The notes beneath the pieces were generated by a model, which was given only the letters and a program-made list of their open reading frames with translations, had not been told where the DNA came from and did no database searches. The translations under genes were made by a program, and so were the position numbers. From Tepidanaerobacter sp. DTU063 (GTDB lineage Bacteria; Bacillota; Thermosediminibacteria; Thermosediminibacterales; Tepidanaerobacteraceae), in NCBI GenBank assembly GCA_001512695.1, contig LFSJ01000064.1, positions 1-64,000 of the forward strand: 64,000 bases of DNA. Reading direction: 5' to 3'. Below, piece by piece: positions 25,844-34,485 of this stretch; positions within the stretch are counted from its first letter, which is position 1; each line of letters starts with the position of its first letter.

Positions 25844-25873
25844 AAAAACTGATTCAAGATTGAATCAGTTTTT
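25844..25873 (-). terminator. Terminator ending the aminomutase operon
   Basis: AAAAACTGATTCA (25844-25856), loop of four, TGAATCAGTTTTT: 13 perfect pairs with T-runs. It overlaps the stop of the NAD(P)-binding gene and isolates the operon from rluB. Confidence 0.9.
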
Positions 25874-26550
25874 CACTGTTGATTTATTTTCTGTATCAAT
25901 TTCTGTACAAAAGGTCCTCCCTCGCCCAAAGCAAATGCACTCATGGTACCACATGCCACATTTCTAATGGCAAAACTAATATATTCGGGAGGGATGTTGA
26001 TTTCTTCAAGTCTTTTCATTATGTTCAGGGCCGCTCTAATTGCTTCTTCACTGGCAATATTGTTTATATTTTTAACTAATATTTCATCGCCAAAACATAC
26101 AGTACCCAGCAGAGAAAATATCTTAGCTACTCTATTTCGTATGGTAATATCTTCACTGTCGATAACAATTAAAGGTAGTTCACCGGTTGAGGCCATGTGC
26201 TGTGCATGCCCGATAATTTTAGCGGCAGCTATCTTGCTTAATTTTTTTAAGGGGTCAAGAGCTATCTTCTCCGTATTAGTAGAAACATTGATTACTACCT
26301 GCTGCTGCTGCAATACGGATTTTAGCTCAGATATAGCCTGATGAATTGCATCGGCAGGCAATGCCAAAATAACATAATCTGATAGAGCGAGAAGAGAATA
26401 ACTATCCGTTGCTATGGCTGATATTTCCTTTGCCAATAGGCCACATTTTCTCAAATCTTTATCGATTAAAATAATGTTATACTGAGAATTTAATTTACGG
26501 GCAATAAAGCTGCCCATGCGACCGGCACCTATAATGGCAACTGTTTCCAT
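25873..26550 (-). CDS. NAD(P)-binding reductase-like protein
   Basis: This 225-residue protein starts with a Rossmann motif (VAIIGAGRMGSF). A helical C-terminal half follows with conserved NVACGTMSAFALGEGG. The fold suggests pyrroline-5-carboxylate reductase or F420-dependent NADP reductase-type enzymes, but the diagnostic C-terminal residues of either are not clear. It is the last gene of the operon running from the regulator (30556), directly after the P-loop gene by 11 bases. By context it may reduce an intermediate of the aminomutase pathway. Confidence 0.6.
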   Translation of the reverse strand: METVAIIGAGRMGSFIARKLNSQYNIILIDKDLRKCGLLAKEISAIATDSYSLLALSDYVILALPADAIHQAISELKSVLQQQQVVINVSTNTEKIALDPLKKLSKIAAAKIIGHAQHMASTGELPLIVIDSEDITIRNRVAKIFSLLGTVCFGDEILVKNINNIASEEAIRAALNIMKRLEEINIPPEYISFAIRNVACGTMSAFALGEGGPFVQKLIQKINQQ

Positions 26551-26560
26551 ATTCAGCCCC

Positions 26561-27652
26561 CTAACTCTGTTTTTCTAAACAAGCTAATAGGGTATTTAAC
26601 AAAGTGGTAGCACCTTCGTGTTTTATATCGATTACCGGTACTTTTACTGCCTTTCGCATTTTCTCCAATAATTCGTGCTTGTCAATGTAGCCTGGCTCGT
26701 ACATATCCTTCTCAAAACGATACTTTGGATAGAAAGGATTTACCGTAATTGCCAATAAGGGAAGCTTTCGCAAAGTCTTTACATTGCCGCCGTTTTCTTT
26801 TATTCTATTGATTTCATTTAATAGATTTTCCGGTTCCCCACCGGTGAGTAATTTTATGGAGTCTTTGATCACTAAAGTTCTGTTTGCCCATAGTTTGCCC
26901 ATACCATCGTTGAGCTGTTTTAGGGCACTTTCTGCTATCAATGCAGGAATGAAGATGATTCGCGTATCTTCAATCCTGTCGATGATTTCCTTTACCGTTG
27001 AATCATCGATAAGAGAACCATAATTTAACAGTTTTTTTTCTTCATTCAAATTTTCTGGGAAAAGTATTATTTTGTCTGCTTGAACAGAATGAAGAAATTC
27101 ATCATTTGATATATCAGCCAAATTGAGTAAGTCATATAAAGCCTTTGTTTCCTTTACTAAAATATCAATATTCACGTTGCGGGCAGCACCAGTTGCTATA
27201 ATAATCCCATCCGTTTCAATCATGGGTGCTATACGATTTAATGCTCCATCAACTAAAACAATTTTGCATCCAAAATCATCAATCATTCTATTTTCTACAT
27301 ATCTCAATTGACTGCCCTTATTTGGTCCTGCCACCACTGCCAAGCCTTCTTTAACAACTCTTACTATGTTTATATTGCCCAGGGGCGTTTTGATATCTGT
27401 TGTTTCCAATATTTCATACTTTGCATTTCCGCCGCAGAGACATTTCTGAGCAGTTGCCAAAATGGTGTTCTCTCTTACAAATAAACGAGGTTTTGGTAAT
27501 CTGGTTATATTGTCAATTTCTTCTCCATCATAGCCGATACTTGTTAAGCCAATGGAAATATTTATCTTGTACAATTCATTTAAAATAGCAGAAGTGGTGG
27601 TAGTTTTCCCCGTATTCTTTGCAGTTCCTGCTATGCCTACTATTAAGCTCAT
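26561..27652 (-). CDS. P-loop protein, possible aminomutase reactivase (KamB/Or-2-like)
   Basis: About 363 residues from the second of two adjacent ATGs (27652), spaced six bases from GGGGG. Residues near the N-terminus read VGIAGTAKNTGKTTTTSAIL, a Walker A loop. The arrangement N-T-G-K-T and the later VLVDGALNRIAPM Walker B-like segment resemble the P-loop proteins coded with lysine 5,6-aminomutase and ornithine aminomutase, which help reactivate these B12 enzymes. It follows the mutase gene by about 47 bases. The role is inferred from fold and position; identity with KamB has not been tested. Confidence 0.55.
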   Translation of the reverse strand: MSLIVGIAGTAKNTGKTTTTSAILNELYKINISIGLTSIGYDGEEIDNITRLPKPRLFVRENTILATAQKCLCGGNAKYEILETTDIKTPLGNINIVRVVKEGLAVVAGPNKGSQLRYVENRMIDDFGCKIVLVDGALNRIAPMIETDGIIIATGAARNVNIDILVKETKALYDLLNLADISNDEFLHSVQADKIILFPENLNEEKKLLNYGSLIDDSTVKEIIDRIEDTRIIFIPALIAESALKQLNDGMGKLWANRTLVIKDSIKLLTGGEPENLLNEINRIKENGGNVKTLRKLPLLAITVNPFYPKYRFEKDMYEPGYIDKHELLEKMRKAVKVPVIDIKHEGATTLLNTLLACLEKQS

Positions 27653-27699
27653 CATTAACCCCCTATTAGGCGAAATCAAAACACCGCATGGTGAAATTT

Positions 27700-29514
27700 T
27701 TACGCCTTGGTCAACACCGAATTCCTGCCAGCTCTTCCCGGATATGCTCCATCTTCACGACTTCCAAGTAAACCCTGGTATAAAGCATCTATGAAACTGC
27801 CGTTTTTCACCACGGACTCTAATACTTTCTCAATCCCTTCTTCCATTTCCTCGGCCCATTTTTTAGCATTTTCCGTTGGCTCCATGTTAGCGTGACCAAA
27901 GAACCTAAATGATGCCTGGGTTGCTCTCAGTGTATCAATTCTGGAAGCTGCGGTTATTGGACCTTTAGAAAAGGCTTCATCAGATGATGCTATTGAAATG
28001 CCGTCTACTCCTAATGAAGATGCAAGGGACGCGTGAAGTGCTGTCATCAGTGATGACTGAACTCTATCTTCAGTTTGGGTTAAGAATCCAATCGGTGCGC
28101 CACACCATATTGGTGCATTGACAATATTTCTTAGGCAATAAATTTTTGCTGCATTGAAATCCACGTAGTTATCTTCCATTTGACCATTAATCATGACTTC
28201 CGGTGAGTAGCAAAATAGTGGCTGGAGTATTGGTTTACCACCGAGTCTCAAGCCGAGTTTTGAAACTATTAGCATGCCTGCAAATGCTTTATATGCTGGA
28301 ACGCCGGAAAGCTCTTCATTTGTAACTACATCAAAGGGCATGCTAAATTCAGCTGCATACTTTATGGCAGCCACAGCATCTACGGTGAGCCGCTCGGGAT
28401 CAGTTCCACCACTTAATGATCCGTAAGCAATGTTTATTTTTGTCAAATCTGCCCCAATTTTACCAGCTATTACCACGGTTTCAGGGGTATTCAATCCTCT
28501 GTGTGCTCTGACCTGCCAGAGGGTATACGGCGCCAGGGATTCTTTAATACTTTTTAGGTTTTCATAAGTTATTATAGACCCGTCTTCCTCGTGTGTTATG
28601 TAACCTTCTAAAAATCCTTCGGTTCTTGCTCCCCAAGATGGATCAAAGTGTATGACGCCATCTGCTCCCCAAGCTTCACAAGATTTTATATGCGCAATGT
28701 CCATAAACGGGCAGCCTGTTCCGTATTGTATGAATACTACAGGGTTTTTATCCGTATGCTGGAGCTTCATTGGCCTCATTCGAGAATTAACATCACCAAC
28801 GTATTTACTCAGTGCACTTACTTCATCACTCGAGAGTGGTCGGGTTTTTTCACGATACTTACCGGCTTCATAAAAGGATTTCACTACATCGTCGCATAAT
28901 TTAGCATATTCCCTGCGAAATTTATCTTTTTCTGATTCACTGGTGCTCTCTATTATCTGCCGGCGAAGCTCAGCCCTCATAATTGCCGTAGTAGTTTTAT
29001 CACTTACATAGTCAAGAATTCCATCGACTATAGTATCGAGTAGTTTTTCTATTCTTTTATTGTTGAAATCGTACTTGTAATCTGCTGTAATATCCTTCTT
29101 TTCCTGCTTAACCCCGGTTTCTGCAGGTATATATTCTCTATCTTCAACAAAAGCTACAGCTTCCTCCACAGTTGTTCCCGGACCAAAGCCTGCATCAAAA
29201 CCCAGCTCTGCAGCAAGTTCCGGTCGTATTGCCATTCCACCTATGCCTATTTTTACCCTATCTCTTAAGCCAGCAGCTTCAGCCAGGTCGATAAATTTGC
29301 CCAAGATTTCTGCTACACCGTAACCTAAAGTACGGCTGATTAAAACAACATCTGCCTTGTTGTCAATTATAGCTTTAATAATCTCCTCCTGCGTATGGTC
29401 TGGAGGCATGAGTATAGTATCATGGCCATTTTGTTCCAGGCCCCGCTTTATCATTTTTAGCCCAATATCGTGAACTGGGTCCAAGGGTGCTAATAAAACT
29501 TTCTTTCTGCTCAT
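27700..29514 (-). CDS. Cobalamin aminomutase-like enzyme (lysine 5,6-/ornithine 4,5-aminomutase superfamily)
   Basis: The 604-residue protein carries a B12-binding domain at the N-terminus. The D-x-x-H-x-x-G motif is D12-H15-G18 (DPVHDIG), followed by VVLISRTLG and GIGGMAI. Residues about 160-604 form a barrel that resembles the lysine 5,6-aminomutase alpha subunit (KamD): both share GADG/V-I, A(R/T)TEGF, GLLG/FGG and a terminal GxxSK-like tail. In OraE the B12 domain is C-terminal and in KamDE it is a separate subunit, so this order is unusual. Aminomutases shift an amino group by one carbon using PLP and adenosylcobalamin; the substrate is unknown here. The ATG at 29514 is preceded by GGGAGG. 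Confidence 0.7.
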   Translation of the reverse strand: MSRKKVLLAPLDPVHDIGLKMIKRGLEQNGHDTILMPPDHTQEEIIKAIIDNKADVVLISRTLGYGVAEILGKFIDLAEAAGLRDRVKIGIGGMAIRPELAAELGFDAGFGPGTTVEEAVAFVEDREYIPAETGVKQEKKDITADYKYDFNNKRIEKLLDTIVDGILDYVSDKTTTAIMRAELRRQIIESTSESEKDKFRREYAKLCDDVVKSFYEAGKYREKTRPLSSDEVSALSKYVGDVNSRMRPMKLQHTDKNPVVFIQYGTGCPFMDIAHIKSCEAWGADGVIHFDPSWGARTEGFLEGYITHEEDGSIITYENLKSIKESLAPYTLWQVRAHRGLNTPETVVIAGKIGADLTKINIAYGSLSGGTDPERLTVDAVAAIKYAAEFSMPFDVVTNEELSGVPAYKAFAGMLIVSKLGLRLGGKPILQPLFCYSPEVMINGQMEDNYVDFNAAKIYCLRNIVNAPIWCGAPIGFLTQTEDRVQSSLMTALHASLASSLGVDGISIASSDEAFSKGPITAASRIDTLRATQASFRFFGHANMEPTENAKKWAEEMEEGIEKVLESVVKNGSFIDALYQGLLGSREDGAYPGRAGRNSVLTKA

Positions 29515-29527
29515 GACATACTCCTCC

Positions 29528-29761
29528 CTAATTGCTTTGATCAAAGAGCCAGCTATATCTATCGCCGGGCTTATAGATGTATCCTCTGGCCCGAATTCTC
29601 GCGCCAGGACCTTGATGCTGGATGAAGACTATAGTTGTATCTTTAAAGCCTAGTTTTTCCATTAATTCCAATGTAAATTTCTCTGCTTCCTCTTCGTCTT
29701 TGCAAACCAAATATGTCTCCAGGTCAACGGCGTCCATTACTTTTTCCAAGATGTCCGACAT
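29528..29761 (-). CDS. Small protein upstream of aminomutase, possible small subunit
   Basis: A 77-residue protein starting at ATG 29761 with GGAGGAGAT immediately upstream; the longer frame from 29803 has no SD. It begins MSDILEKVMDAVDLETYL and ends with a basic/aromatic segment (RARGYIYKPGDRYSWLF). I do not recognise it. It sits 13 bases before the aminomutase, like OraS (about 121 residues) sits before OraE. It may therefore be a reduced small subunit, which is inference from position only. Confidence 0.6.
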   Translation of the reverse strand: MSDILEKVMDAVDLETYLVCKDEEEAEKFTLELMEKLGFKDTTIVFIQHQGPGARIRARGYIYKPGDRYSWLFDQSN

Positions 29762-29803
29762 GCTATCTCCTCCTATACTCAAATAGTCCAGAATATCATA
29801 CAC

Positions 29804-30556
29804 TTAATCATTATCTGAACTGCTGTCATCTACCCCATTGACTATTTCCCAGTATCTCTTAACATCTCTTTCTAGCTTCTCTATATGATCGATCATTGCT
29901 TTTTCTGCCAATTCGGGATTTCTTGAAGCGATAGCTTCAAAAATCTTTTTGTGGTCTAAAAGGACCGTACTTTTGACTTCTTTTCTTATAAACTCAAGCA
30001 TTGGTGACAGTTGACCGTGCTGTCTGATTAAATCCATTGCTGCATCCAATACTCTATTTCGGGCGGCTTTGGAAATTATCTTGTGAAACTCCACATCATC
30101 ATCAGCTATGGAAATACCTTCTTTGACATGCATCTGCTGTCTTTTAACAATGTTTTGCATTTCGCTGATTTCTTCATCAGTTATATACATTGCTGCCAAC
30201 TTTGCCAATTGGCTCTCAATGGCTTTTCTCGCTATTAATAAATCAAGCAATTCTTGTTTGCCGGTTACCTTTATAACATTGAGCAATTCCTTGCCGTAAT
30301 GATTGATTGTATTCTCACGTTCCAGTTCCCTTAGCTTTTTTTTGCCCGCTGGAGTCAACTTTCTACCCTTAAAACCAATTTTTTCCGTATAACCCTTTAT
30401 ATCTAACTGCCTCAATATTCTACCAACAGTGGCTTCACTAATATTTATACCCTGCATTTGTAAAATGTTGCGTACGTAACCTGAGCCCACAGGAACTTCA
30501 GAATTATCTATGGATTTTAAAATTAAAAATAACATCCGCATTTTATCATGTTGCAT
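29804..30556 (-). CDS. Transcriptional regulator: winged-helix plus FCD domain
   Basis: This 250-residue protein has an N-terminal winged helix (about 1-75). It includes SEATVGRILRQLDIKGY and resembles the NrpR/ribonuclease-R-type wHTH rather than the usual GntR head. Residues about 85-235 make an all-helical FCD ligand domain with the metal histidines expected in DVEFHKII, HKKIFEAI and DHIEKLE. FCD regulators sense organic acids or amino acids. It opens the aminomutase operon, so it probably controls this and the flavoprotein operon. The start is ATG 30556 after GGGGG. Confidence 0.75.
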   Translation of the reverse strand: MQHDKMRMLFLILKSIDNSEVPVGSGYVRNILQMQGINISEATVGRILRQLDIKGYTEKIGFKGRKLTPAGKKKLRELERENTINHYGKELLNVIKVTGKQELLDLLIARKAIESQLAKLAAMYITDEEISEMQNIVKRQQMHVKEGISIADDDVEFHKIISKAARNRVLDAAMDLIRQHGQLSPMLEFIRKEVKSTVLLDHKKIFEAIASRNPELAEKAMIDHIEKLERDVKRYWEIVNGVDDSSSDND

Positions 30557-30675
30557 GTCAAACCCCCATTTTAATACTTACATAATTAACTATACATAAA
30601 TTTTCTAGTACAGCACCGGTTAAAACTATAAATTTAATATTATGGCATATCATTAAACTTTTAACAAAATGATTG

Positions 30676-30711
30676 AAAATAAAAGGAGTCAGTGATGACC
30701 CCTTTTATTTT
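30676..30711 (-). terminator. Terminator of flavoprotein operon
   Basis: AAAATAAAAGG and GTCA (30677-30691), loop GTGA, TGAC and CCTTTTATTTT (30696-30711): about 15 pairs with one A-C mismatch, with T-rich ends. It separates the PLP/flavoprotein operon from the regulator operon. The other bases in 30557-30731 hold no gene. Confidence 0.9.
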
Positions 30712-30731
30712 CGCATTTGATGCATAATATG

Positions 30732-32015
30732 TTATACAACTTTCTGATTAAACACGTCAGTCATTCCTGCTTTTTCTACACGTTCCTTTATTGCATTTAC
30801 ATCGGTAGAATACAAACCTAATTCTTTCATTCTCTCAAAGTATACGGAGCCAGAAAAGGTGTATTTCTTAGATATACCTTCTTCAGTCTTCATCTGTTCC
30901 TTTACATAAGCAATAGCATCGCCTACTGCAAGTTCTGTTGGAATCTGTACAAGTTCTTTTCCAACTGCCCACCTTACGGCATTGGCTCCAGCAAGAGTAC
31001 CGGTGCAAATGGCTTCAGTATGGCCTACCAGAGGTCCTGCTTTTTCGCCAGCGCAAAATAGGTTTTCCAACCCTTCCGTCTTTAGATGATTATCTCTAGG
31101 TGAAAGAGCAAGATATCTTATGGAGTTGCCCAGGTTTCCTGCATAAGGATCTTCATACCTGGCATTCTCAAATCCGGGGATTTGTCTTAAATCTTCTAAG
31201 GGGAAGAAGGGACTCATCAATTTTGCATGTCCAGTATCAAGTAGTATTACATTGTCCACGTACTCTTTCAAAGCGTACTGTTGACAGGCTTTTTTAGTAA
31301 GGATATCTGATCCTTCTTTTGAATGCTCCGGCACGGGTATAACTGCCACACCAGTTGAATTTAACTTGTCTACAATTTCCTGTGAAAGTGATTCTTTAAA
31401 GAGTTTACAAGAGCCGCTCATAGCTCCATAACTGCCATCTGCTTTCTTAGCCATCATTTCTTTGACGCCCATCTTGGCCGCAATGCTCACTCGGGGTCCA
31501 TAGCTTGGGCACCTGTATACGCACATTGCGCATCCATTTCCGTACTTGGTACAATTGCTTTGAGGACCAGCAGTTCCGGTACACTCAACAAAAACATCGC
31601 CTTCAAATTTTCTGTCATCTTCTGTGATCACAGCTAATATCTTGTTGCCCTCGCCAACTACATCCTTCACACGGCTTTCCGTATATACTTCAACACCTGC
31701 ATCTATGAGGACTTTTTTGACTGCCGGTTCCACTAAAGCCACATCGTACAATGTTGCATGCTTGTGACCAGGAAACTCAATGTTTTTATGTCTCGCTACA
31801 CTATCGGTAACTTGGAACAATTCGCCGCCACCCATAGCTATCATTTCTTCTGTAGCAGTAAACCTTCCGTTATTTCTCATGATACCGCCAACAAGGCCTG
31901 TTCCCAATAACATGTCAGTTCTTTCTAGCAAGACTACATCTGCACCGGCTTTTTTGGCTGATAAGGCAGCTGCAGTGCCGGCCCAGCCTCCTCCTATAAC
32001 AACTACTTTGGGCAT
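30732..32015 (-). CDS. FAD-dependent oxidoreductase of unknown substrate
   Basis: This 427-residue flavoprotein starts VVVIGGGWAGTAAALSAKKA, a dinucleotide-binding fold. It ends with LFCAGEKAGPLVGHTEAICT and a GxxAGANAVRWA helix, like the GidA/TrmFO/fumarate-reductase superfamily. An unusual internal insertion, CTKYGNGCAMCVYRCPSYGP, holds four cysteines that could bind an iron-sulfur cluster. The substrate is unknown; by operon position it may oxidise an amino acid or its product after the PLP enzyme. It follows the PLP gene by 66 bases, which contain a perfect 12-pair hairpin. Confidence 0.75.
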   Translation of the reverse strand: MPKVVVIGGGWAGTAAALSAKKAGADVVLLERTDMLLGTGLVGGIMRNNGRFTATEEMIAMGGGELFQVTDSVARHKNIEFPGHKHATLYDVALVEPAVKKVLIDAGVEVYTESRVKDVVGEGNKILAVITEDDRKFEGDVFVECTGTAGPQSNCTKYGNGCAMCVYRCPSYGPRVSIAAKMGVKEMMAKKADGSYGAMSGSCKLFKESLSQEIVDKLNSTGVAVIPVPEHSKEGSDILTKKACQQYALKEYVDNVILLDTGHAKLMSPFFPLEDLRQIPGFENARYEDPYAGNLGNSIRYLALSPRDNHLKTEGLENLFCAGEKAGPLVGHTEAICTGTLAGANAVRWAVGKELVQIPTELAVGDAIAYVKEQMKTEEGISKKYTFSGSVYFERMKELGLYSTDVNAIKERVEKAGMTDVFNQKVV

Positions 32016-32081: not shown

Positions 32082-33548
32082 TTAATCAATATATCCACTG
32101 TACTTGGCAATGATCTCCATGAGCTTGACAAGGGCTTTTACTGCATATCTGAACTTACTATCAATGATCTGTCCCTCATCATCCGTAGTACCAAGGCCCG
32201 GTGAAATCAGAATGTTTCCGTCATAAGCAACTGTTGGAATGACACCCATCTGTGAGAGGCCTGTTTGCAATAACTGGCTTCCAGCATACATGTCTTCGAT
32301 GGAGAAGATTGGGAATCCTAATTCGTCGCCTTCCCAGGTCTTTTCGTAGTTAACTTCAACGGCTCTGCTGTTGTAGGATTTGGATATGAGTATGCCTTTC
32401 TTAAGTTTAGGATGAATTTGTTCAAATTCTTCTTTAACAATATCGTACATGTCGTCAACGGGTTTCTTTAAGTTTTCAGGATTATCTCTCAATTCTTTCA
32501 GCGCTGCAATCATTCCGAGCATTGCTTCTTTACCTGGATCAAATCCAACATAAGCTGCTTTTCCATAGGATGATGTGGTGCCGTAGCGGTCACCGTGCAT
32601 TCCTAGGGCTCTGCGAATTGGTACCATAAATTCTTCTTTACCTATGATTAAACCTGACGTAGGTGACCCGCTGGCCTTATCCATACTATAAATTATTACG
32701 TCTGCACCGCTCTTGGTAATATCATGACCAATGAAAGGAACTCCCCAAGCATTATCCAAAACATAGGGCACGTCAAAGTCTTTGGCAATTTCCGCCAAAC
32801 GCTTCTGCAGTACAGGTACACCATCCTCGTCTTTTACGCCATAGCCGTATCCCGGTGTGTCGTAGGCAAGGGATGTGATACCAGTGAGCATCGTAGCATG
32901 GCGTTCGGCAACTTTCTTTATTTTTTCAGCTGAAGCTTCGGGATCGACATTGGTAAGCTGGAAAGTGGGGTGGAACTTAATACCGTGTACCGAATAATCG
33001 GCTCCTACCAATGGTACTATATACATACTTAAGTTATTTTGTCTCTTGCCATAGAAACCTAGTTCGCCGGCGGTTGAACCTCTGTCTGCAAGAACGTCTT
33101 TAAATCTGCCGGGGAAGGGTCTTCCGTAACCACCGTGGTGGTGTAGGTGTTTTTCATAGGGAATTATATAACGGGCCTGATAATTGTCACCGCGCCCCTG
33201 CATTGGTGGTGAAAATAGAACGTCAAGGGCAACCCATATTCCTGCTTCACAGGTGCTAATTGGTGCAGCATCATATTCATCACCATAAACATCTTTAACT
33301 ATTGATCTGATTTCGTCTACTAACTTAGATAAAGGAATTACTTCCTGAGCACCTTTCTCGACAGCTTCTCTTATATTTCTGCTCAAGGGAGAAGGACAGC
33401 CGGAAATAGCACCGGTCAAACCAAACTTACCTCTTAAATCTTCAGGAATTCCTATCTCATCTGCGGCTTTTTTCGCTTCCGCATAGATATTTGCAATGTT
33501 TGCTTGTAAATACTGATACATTTGAAACTTTTTGTTAAACTTTGCCAT
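32082..33548 (-). CDS. Fold-type-I PLP-dependent enzyme of unknown substrate
   Basis: This 488-residue protein has a PLP-enzyme architecture near residue 290-300: YSMDKASGSPTSGLIIG with a candidate Schiff-base lysine, and VPYVLDNAWG with the aspartate for the pyridine nitrogen. It looks most like SelA/cysteine-desulfurase/DgaE-type enzymes, but the family match is not precise. Conserved text YEKHLHHHGGYGRPFPG is unusual and rich in histidines. Reactions of the type (elimination, transamination) would give reactive enamines, which fits the RidA gene next to it. SD AAGGAGG precedes ATG 33548. Confidence 0.7.
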   Translation of the reverse strand: MAKFNKKFQMYQYLQANIANIYAEAKKAADEIGIPEDLRGKFGLTGAISGCPSPLSRNIREAVEKGAQEVIPLSKLVDEIRSIVKDVYGDEYDAAPISTCEAGIWVALDVLFSPPMQGRGDNYQARYIIPYEKHLHHHGGYGRPFPGRFKDVLADRGSTAGELGFYGKRQNNLSMYIVPLVGADYSVHGIKFHPTFQLTNVDPEASAEKIKKVAERHATMLTGITSLAYDTPGYGYGVKDEDGVPVLQKRLAEIAKDFDVPYVLDNAWGVPFIGHDITKSGADVIIYSMDKASGSPTSGLIIGKEEFMVPIRRALGMHGDRYGTTSSYGKAAYVGFDPGKEAMLGMIAALKELRDNPENLKKPVDDMYDIVKEEFEQIHPKLKKGILISKSYNSRAVEVNYEKTWEGDELGFPIFSIEDMYAGSQLLQTGLSQMGVIPTVAYDGNILISPGLGTTDDEGQIIDSKFRYAVKALVKLMEIIAKYSGYID

Positions 33549-33563
33549 TGTATTTCCTCCTTG

Positions 33564-34022
33564 TTATTTTAATTTTACTATTAATTCAACTTCACAAGTG
33601 GCGTCCATAGGAAGCTGATTGACACCAACAGCCGAGCGTGCATGGGCACCTGCTTCACCAAATATCTGGCCAAGCAGCTCTGAAGCTCCATTGATAACCT
33701 GAGGCTGCTGATTAAAACCATCGGCACTGTTTACAAAGCCAACAACCTTCACTATTTTTTCAACATTATCTAAACTTCCAGCTAAAGACTTTACTATGCT
33801 GAGACAGTTTAATGCACATATCTTGGCTGCTTCATACGCGTCTTCTACGGAAACCTCATCACCGACTTTACCTTTATACTTTAATTGTCCATCCACAAAG
33901 GGAATTTGACCTGCAGTATAAATATATTTGTCTACTTTTACACCGGGAACATATGCAGCTACCGGTTTTGGTGGTTCAGGTAACGCAAGACCTAATTCTT
34001 GAAGTTTTTTCTCGTACGACAT
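33564..34022 (-). CDS. RidA/YjgF-family deaminase
   Basis: About 152 residues from ATG 34022 after AAAGGAGG (spacing about 10 bases). Core sequence AGQIPFVDG near residue 40, ALNCLSIVKSLAGSLD, and the C-terminal RSAVGVNQLPMDATCEVELI block with the arginine that binds the carboxylate of imines. RidA proteins hydrolyse reactive 2-aminoacrylate-like enamines released by PLP enzymes, or take part in specific catabolic routes. It is between the PLP gene (15 bases downstream) and the DUF gene upstream. This makes an imine or enamine intermediate in the pathway likely, but this is inference. Confidence 0.9.
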   Translation of the reverse strand: MSYEKKLQELGLALPEPPKPVAAYVPGVKVDKYIYTAGQIPFVDGQLKYKGKVGDEVSVEDAYEAAKICALNCLSIVKSLAGSLDNVEKIVKVVGFVNSADGFNQQPQVINGASELLGQIFGEAGAHARSAVGVNQLPMDATCEVELIVKLK

Positions 34023-34062
34023 ACGCACAACACCTCCTTTCAAGTAGTGAAAATAAAAACCA

Positions 34063-34485
34063 TTAACCAATTACTACCTCATCATCAAGGTCAAGATTTC
34101 TTTCATTGCCTGAAGTGCGTTCTTCACCGTATATAACGATATTGTAGTGATTTGGCATATGAGTTTCATCAAAGCCTGCAATGTTTCCAATTACTTGTCC
34201 GTTTATTTTAACTTCATCGCCTACTGTTATTACTGTGCTTTCCCTTACAACAAAAAAACCTATATAAGCAATTTTGTTTACTACATCCCCTGGCTTCTTA
34301 GCTTCATCAGTTAAAATCAGCTCATGAACTTCATCAGCAACTAGACACCTTGATGGTTGTGGGATAAGCTGCAGACCCCGCTCTTCATACTTGCCGTCTA
34401 ATACAACGACTAAGTTTCCTTTTAAAGCTTTCTTCTTAGCGTAGGGATTGGTTTTAAACATACCGGTTTTATATGGATCAGCCAT
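34063..34485 (-). CDS. Conserved hypothetical protein, first gene of flavoprotein operon
   Basis: The product (140 residues) is a small beta-rich protein: LVVVLDGKYEERGLQLIPQP at the start, GFFVVRESTVITVGDEV in the middle and an acidic C-terminus (NLDLDDEVVIG). It resembles a DUF6917-type protein as I recall it, but I cannot confirm this. Nothing suggests a catalytic motif. It begins the operon that continues with RidA, the PLP enzyme and the flavoprotein. The SD GAGGAGG overlaps one arm of a dyad CTCATCAATGATGAG (34497-34511). Confidence 0.6.
   Translation of the reverse strand: MADPYKTGMFKTNPYAKKKALKGNLVVVLDGKYEERGLQLIPQPSRCLVADEVHELILTDEAKKPGDVVNKIAYIGFFVVRESTVITVGDEVKINGQVIGNIAGFDETHMPNHYNIVIYGEERTSGNERNLDLDDEVVIG

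Follow-up and report, generated by a model that had tools for sequence, protein, structure and literature searches.

The question raised by this locus is how an aminomutase-like protein with its cobalamin domain at the N-terminus is related to lysine 5,6-aminomutase (KamDE) and ornithine aminomutase (OraSE), and whether such an enzyme uses PLP. The window analyzed was a stretch of 64,000 nucleotides of contig LFSJ01000064.1 from Tepidanaerobacter sp. DTU063. A first-pass annotation had placed a D-x-x-H-x-x-G motif at residues 12-18, ahead of a KamD-like barrel, and this was confirmed as DPVHDIG (D12-P-V-H15-D-I-G18) in the translation of the ORF listed at 29514-27700. The annotation gave no strand for it; the ORF is on the minus strand, and stop codons abound on the plus strand of this region. 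The 604-aa protein starts at the ATG at 29514, with the ribosome site GGAGGAG ahead of it, and its parts are as follows.

27700..29514, minus strand: large subunit of the putative B12-barrel mutase, 604 aa (ORF, homologues, AlphaFold2 model, and fold match)
29134..29514, minus strand: N-terminal B12-binding Rossmann domain, residues 1-127, with D12xxH15xxG18 (Pfam PF02310, E 1.9e-17)
28780..29067, minus strand: helical segment, residues ~150-245, homologous to OraS and to the KamD N-terminus (hhalign to OraS, E 2.7e-6)
27895..28752, minus strand: KamD-like TIM barrel, residues ~255-540 (hhalign to KamD, E 5e-7; Foldseek to 1xrs_A, E 7e-17)
28495..28515, minus strand: QVRAHRG motif at the end of barrel strand 3, including R336 and R339 (alignment with KamD)
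28423..28425, minus strand: Y364, equivalent to KamD Y263 (37/37)
27976..27978, minus strand: E513, equivalent to OraE E338 (37/37)

The B12-barrel protein is a real and widely conserved bacterial family. A scan of genome contigs found 35 loci in other genomes encoding proteins of similar length, 49-91% identical and with the same unbroken architecture, from Tepidanaerobacter, Thermosediminibacter-like bacteria, heliobacteria, Halobacteroidaceae, other Firmicutes MAGs, and one Sumerlaeota MAG. A profile search of 399 genomes from the same phylum recovered full-length members (>800 bits) in about 39, some of which carry two copies, and family members occur in 22 of 27 near relatives; matches on plasmids were short and confined to the B12 domain. 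The concern that a frameshift or an assembly error had fused two genes can be set aside with near certainty because the identical architecture is present at 35 independent loci and in about 39/399 genomes. The first-pass annotation had also considered a family of identical architecture with a known function: such a family does exist, and its function was not found described in the literature, in which searches on DUF6917, a Tepidanaerobacter aminomutase, and a permuted aminomutase, covering few subscription papers, returned nothing relevant. The Sumerlaeota copy (L037:2434-4239), the large subunit of which is 49-50% identical, lies on a 9.3-kb contig on which no partner genes were recognized, and transfer or a binning error is possible.

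Regarding the domains of the large subunit, the Pfam B12-binding model spans residues 11-120, and D12, P13, V14, H15, D16, and G18 are invariant in 37 homologues. Only the B12 part was matched by NCBIfam, with KamE (NF052385) first at 56 bits against a cut-off of 280, and KamE was also the nearest relative of this domain in profile comparisons (hhalign, E 1.6e-23). The remaining ~480 residues matched no Pfam or NCBIfam model above cut-off, such that the barrel is without a library model; the large subunit did not match the KamD model PF09043 (Lys-AminoMut_A), and its homology to KamD is seen at the level of profile-profile and fold comparisons. In the former, 409 columns of the barrel half were aligned with KamD, and residues ~150-190 contain the family consensus KTSPGxxRA, which resembles HTSPSIER of OraS. 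The AlphaFold2 model, which has a mean pLDDT of 89, found lysine 5,6-aminomutase alpha (1xrs_A) as its best PDB match, followed by 8t0v_A and 9q1a_C, and further Foldseek matches included OraE (2e-11) and glutamate mutase GlmE (1.5e-10). Whole-chain TM-scores were modest (0.53-0.64) and rmsd values were large, as expected because these relatives are distant and their domains are differently connected. The identity of the barrel to KamD, ~15% in the fold match and 22% in the profile alignment, is that of distant homology.

A further gene, located directly upstream of the large subunit, completes the set of domains.

29528..29761, minus strand: small subunit, 77 aa, homologous to the KamE/OraE dimerisation domain (hhalign to KamE, E 6e-6)

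Its product aligns with the dimerisation domain at the N-terminus of KamE, and this is the weakest of the matches to the four domains (helices, barrel, dimerisation, and B12), all of which were found; against Pfam OAM_dimer it scored E 0.02, below the cut-off. The gene lies beside the large-subunit gene at all 38 loci with sufficient flank. The ATG at 29761, preceded by AGGAGGA, fits the relatives in giving 77 aa; a GTG start at 29803 was considered unlikely and agrees with few homologues. The dimerisation domain missing from the large subunit is thus encoded by this small gene, and the two genes together represent a permuted lysine 5,6-aminomutase: the latter has helices and barrel on one chain and the dimerisation and B12 domains on the other, whereas here the dimerisation domain stands apart and the B12 domain, helices, and barrel share one chain, a circular permutation of the gene pair. 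The permutation proposed in the first-pass annotation is thus supported, and extended by the OraS-like helices between the B12 domain and barrel and by the upstream gene. OraE follows yet another order, barrel-dimer-B12, with OraS apart.

The side of the enzyme that generates the radical appears to be intact. A DxxHxxG Rossmann B12 domain is joined to a TIM barrel, as in class I (base-off/His-on) AdoCbl mutases, and the glutamate of the OraE E338 type, which those barrels place at the adenosyl ribose, is present as E513. In OraE, E338 facilitates breakage of the Co-C bond (PMC4413051). Its equivalent is kept in all 37 family members, 32/32 KamD, and 9/9 OraE sequences; the OraE residues were mapped using the 337/338 pair, which is an identical DE in D512-E513 here, together with the column contents at family positions. 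These features bear on the idea that the protein carries methylcobalamin, as a methyltransferase or a regulatory corrinoid protein. The B12 domain does weakly match MtgC/MtaC-type corrinoid proteins; however, its nearest relative is KamE, the barrel resembles that of KamD, the glutamate in contact with the ribose never varies, a reactivase of AdoCbl enzymes adjoins, and no methyltransferase gene was recognized in the cassette, which makes this idea very improbable.

The PLP side presents a different picture. In KamDE, PLP forms an imine with K144 and is contacted by S238 at the pyridine nitrogen, Y263 by stacking, N299 at O3', and Y236, while its phosphate is held by R184, R268, S189, and the main chains of residues 187-189 (PMC3958899). 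R184, Q188, S189, Y236, S238, Y263, and R268 were invariant in the 32 KamD and 9 OraE sequences compared, whereas the aligned residues in the 37 family members are D, G, A, A, R, Y, and A or G, respectively, with one or few exceptions in some columns, and the N299 position is occupied by glutamate. Therefore, only one of the eight side chains touching PLP is retained, the stacking tyrosine Y364, in 37/37. None of the 37 family members has the phosphate motif R[ST]xGQS, which 27/32 KamD and 9/9 OraE sequences contain; exact residue equivalences to KamD in the loop after strand 2 depend on the aligner, and with both aligners the phosphate-binding residues are absent. The position of the KamE Schiff-base lysine (H+11) is Leu26 here, leucine in 36 of the members and methionine in one, in agreement with the first-pass annotation, which could not locate this lysine with certainty; OraE binds PLP through K629. 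The family also differs from KamE and OraE in the canonical D-x-x-H spacing of its B12 motif (D-x-H in the other two) and in a lysine at H+5 in 36/37 members. In the place that PLP formerly occupied, at the end of strand 3, stand the invariant R336 and R339, the latter aligned exactly with KamD S238, and a natural inference is that they bind the carboxylate of the substrate. Since E513 is retained and the PLP contacts are lost, the radical-generating side has thus been kept and the PLP side erased, and the sequences suggest that the enzyme is independent of PLP, as the first-pass annotation had allowed by analogy with glutamate mutase.

An enzyme using both PLP and AdoCbl may nevertheless be envisaged, in which PLP forms an imine with another barrel lysine, K359 (strand 4) or K409 (after strand 5), and stacks on Y364. 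All three residues are invariant (37/37), the retention of Y364 could reflect continued stacking of a flat ring, R336 and R339 could hold a phosphate, and a KamB-type reactivase is a feature shared with PLP enzymes. Against this stand the replacement of R184, Q188, S189, S238, R268, and N299 in all or nearly all members and the loss of the mobile KamE/OraE lysine that couples PLP to the motion of the B12 domain, and we regard such an aminomutase as quite unlikely. A permuted, PLP-independent AdoCbl radical mutase related to KamDE and OraSE, with a KamB-type reactivase of its own, is in our judgment the probable identity of this system, which would probably perform B12 radical chemistry without B6 on an amino-acid-like substrate.

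Among known enzymes, KamDE (1xrs, 8t0v, and 9q1a) with KamB is the system in which all four domains have homologues, including the glutamate that triggers AdoCbl; the differences from it lie in the order of the domains and the gene split, the absent PLP contacts, and the operon partners. The barrel, dimerisation, and B12 domains of OraSE (3kow-3kp1) are likewise homologous, and the partner genes here are not ord, ortA, or ortB. Glutamate mutase (GlmES/MutSE, 1cb7) is a PLP-free AdoCbl mutase of similar fold with the canonical DxxHxxG; unlike the present system, GlmS and GlmE are separate chains and no dimerisation-domain subunit exists. Its QVR-HG at barrel strand 3 resembles QVR-AHRG by eye, a likeness without statistical support (E 0.44), and a sequence homology of the barrel to MutE/GlmE was rejected (no match to PF06368; profile E 0.19). 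IcmF and methylmalonyl-CoA mutase are also PLP-free AdoCbl mutases with a barrel, and the B12 domain of IcmF can be N-terminal; however, they act on CoA esters and employ a G-protein chaperone, and their sequence match to the family is limited to the B12 domain.

The pair of subunit genes belongs to a cassette in the order DUF6917, RidA-like, SelA/SepCysS-like, GidA-like FAD protein, hairpin, FCD regulator, small subunit, B12-barrel, and KamB-like.

34063..34485, minus strand: DUF6917 protein (Pfam)
33564..34070, minus strand: RidA/YjgF-like enamine/imine deaminase (Pfam)
32082..33548, minus strand: fold-type I PLP enzyme, SelA/SepCysS/DgaE-like, catalytic lysine probably K291 (NCBIfam and model)
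30732..32015, minus strand: GidA/TrmFO-like FAD oxidoreductase with invariant C155, C162, C165, and C169 (Pfam and alignment)
30675..30712, minus strand: terminator-like hairpin with a 17-bp stem, between the halves of the cassette
29804..30556, minus strand: HTH_12 + FCD (GntR-type) transcription regulator (Pfam)
26561..27679, minus strand: KamB-type reactivase (NF052386)
25873..26550, minus strand: ProC/F420_oxidored-like NAD(P) oxidoreductase (Pfam), adjoining the cassette only in close relatives

The partner genes are nearly always on the same strand, and the 38 loci contained, in addition to the small subunit, the PLP enzyme (36), KamB-like gene (33), DUF6917 (31), regulator (31), FAD protein (24), and RidA (20). 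At loci L019-L022 and L096, the core comprises only the B12-barrel gene with the small subunit, the PLP enzyme, and the regulator. DUF6917 was found in 28 of 300 sampled genomes, all with a full-length B12-barrel gene and by our count the same 28, and is therefore an obligate and diagnostic partner of the latter. DUF6917 and RidA are fused into one 302-aa protein in Thermosediminibacter (L035:5149-6057), which links their two functions. A relationship between DUF6917 and OrtA was considered and rejected (no match; hhalign, E 0.27). The model of the PLP enzyme matches Cap15, SelA, and SepCysS, and the four invariant cysteines of the FAD protein, arranged as C-x6-C-x2-C-x3-C, hint at a possible Fe-S cluster. 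No Rfam model reached its gathering score in the 20-40 kb part of the window, and the frequency of promoter-like sites did not exceed that in shuffled sequences.

To our knowledge, KamB-type reactivases have so far been named only for a PLP enzyme, which is a point against PLP independence here. The KamB-like gene of this operon passes the cut-off of the equivalog "lysine 5,6-aminomutase reactivase" (243 against 210 bits), and no KamD or OraE was detected, nor any match to PF09043, in its own genome, which is 83% complete; the model therefore probably over-names this gene. Annotations of that name in genomes without KamDE may signal a B12-barrel system.

In the mechanism we propose for the PLP-independent mutase, AdoCbl would bind base-off at the barrel mouth with H15 on cobalt, and the substrate would be held directly in the barrel, its carboxylate gripped by R336 and R339, which fill the pocket vacated by PLP. 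E513, positioned at the adenosyl ribose, would promote Co-C cleavage, and the resulting 5'-deoxyadenosyl radical would take a hydrogen from the substrate. The substrate radical would then rearrange without PLP, by a carbon-skeleton shift like that of glutamate mutase or an unassisted 1,2-shift, before hydrogen is returned, and damaged cobalamin would be exchanged by the KamB-type reactivase. The product may pass to the SelA-like PLP enzyme, joined in many genomes by RidA, for imine or enamine hydrolysis, and the FAD oxidoreductase. The pathway is probably one of amino acids. Taking as a model the ornithine pathway, in which a mutase is followed by an oxidoreductase and then a PLP enzyme, we propose that the present mutase acts on an amino-acid-type substrate. 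The fuller reading, that a mutase derived from KamDE/OraSE discarded PLP for an arginine-lined substrate site and performs a new AdoCbl reaction, a carbon-skeleton or PLP-free amino rearrangement of an (amino) acid, in an undescribed pathway of which DUF6917 is the diagnostic partner, has in our view about an even chance of being correct.

An AdoCbl eliminase, an ammonia lyase or dehydratase comparable to ethanolamine ammonia-lyase, may also be considered. Such an enzyme would abstract hydrogen from an amino acid or amine and release ammonia or water, which is chemistry that does not need PLP, and its enamine or keto product would be processed by the adjoining RidA, PLP lyase-like, and FAD enzymes. 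However, the relatives by sequence and fold that combine a B12 Rossmann domain with an AdoCbl barrel are all mutases, and eliminases bind B12 in a different, base-on manner; this activity appears unlikely.

The list of known AdoCbl-dependent rearrangements is short, and a mutase family distributed across numerous anaerobic genera (Tepidanaerobacter, Thermosediminibacter, Heliobacterium, Halobacteroidaceae, and others) probably extends it by a further reaction. Since the same scaffold exists with its PLP site intact or erased, the family also offers a natural experiment on how radical enzymes that need two vitamins and mutases that need one interconvert.

Some loci hold additional genes. A membrane transporter-like protein, which has no Pfam or NCBIfam match and may import the substrate, recurs in the cassette (L008:4787-6163, L010, L011, L023, L027, L031, L032, L033, and L036). 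At L010:13705-15987, and also in L011, L013, L014, L017, and L035, the FAD protein occurs a second time downstream of the cassette, accompanied by a dihydroorotate-dehydrogenase-like electron-transfer subunit (PRK05802).
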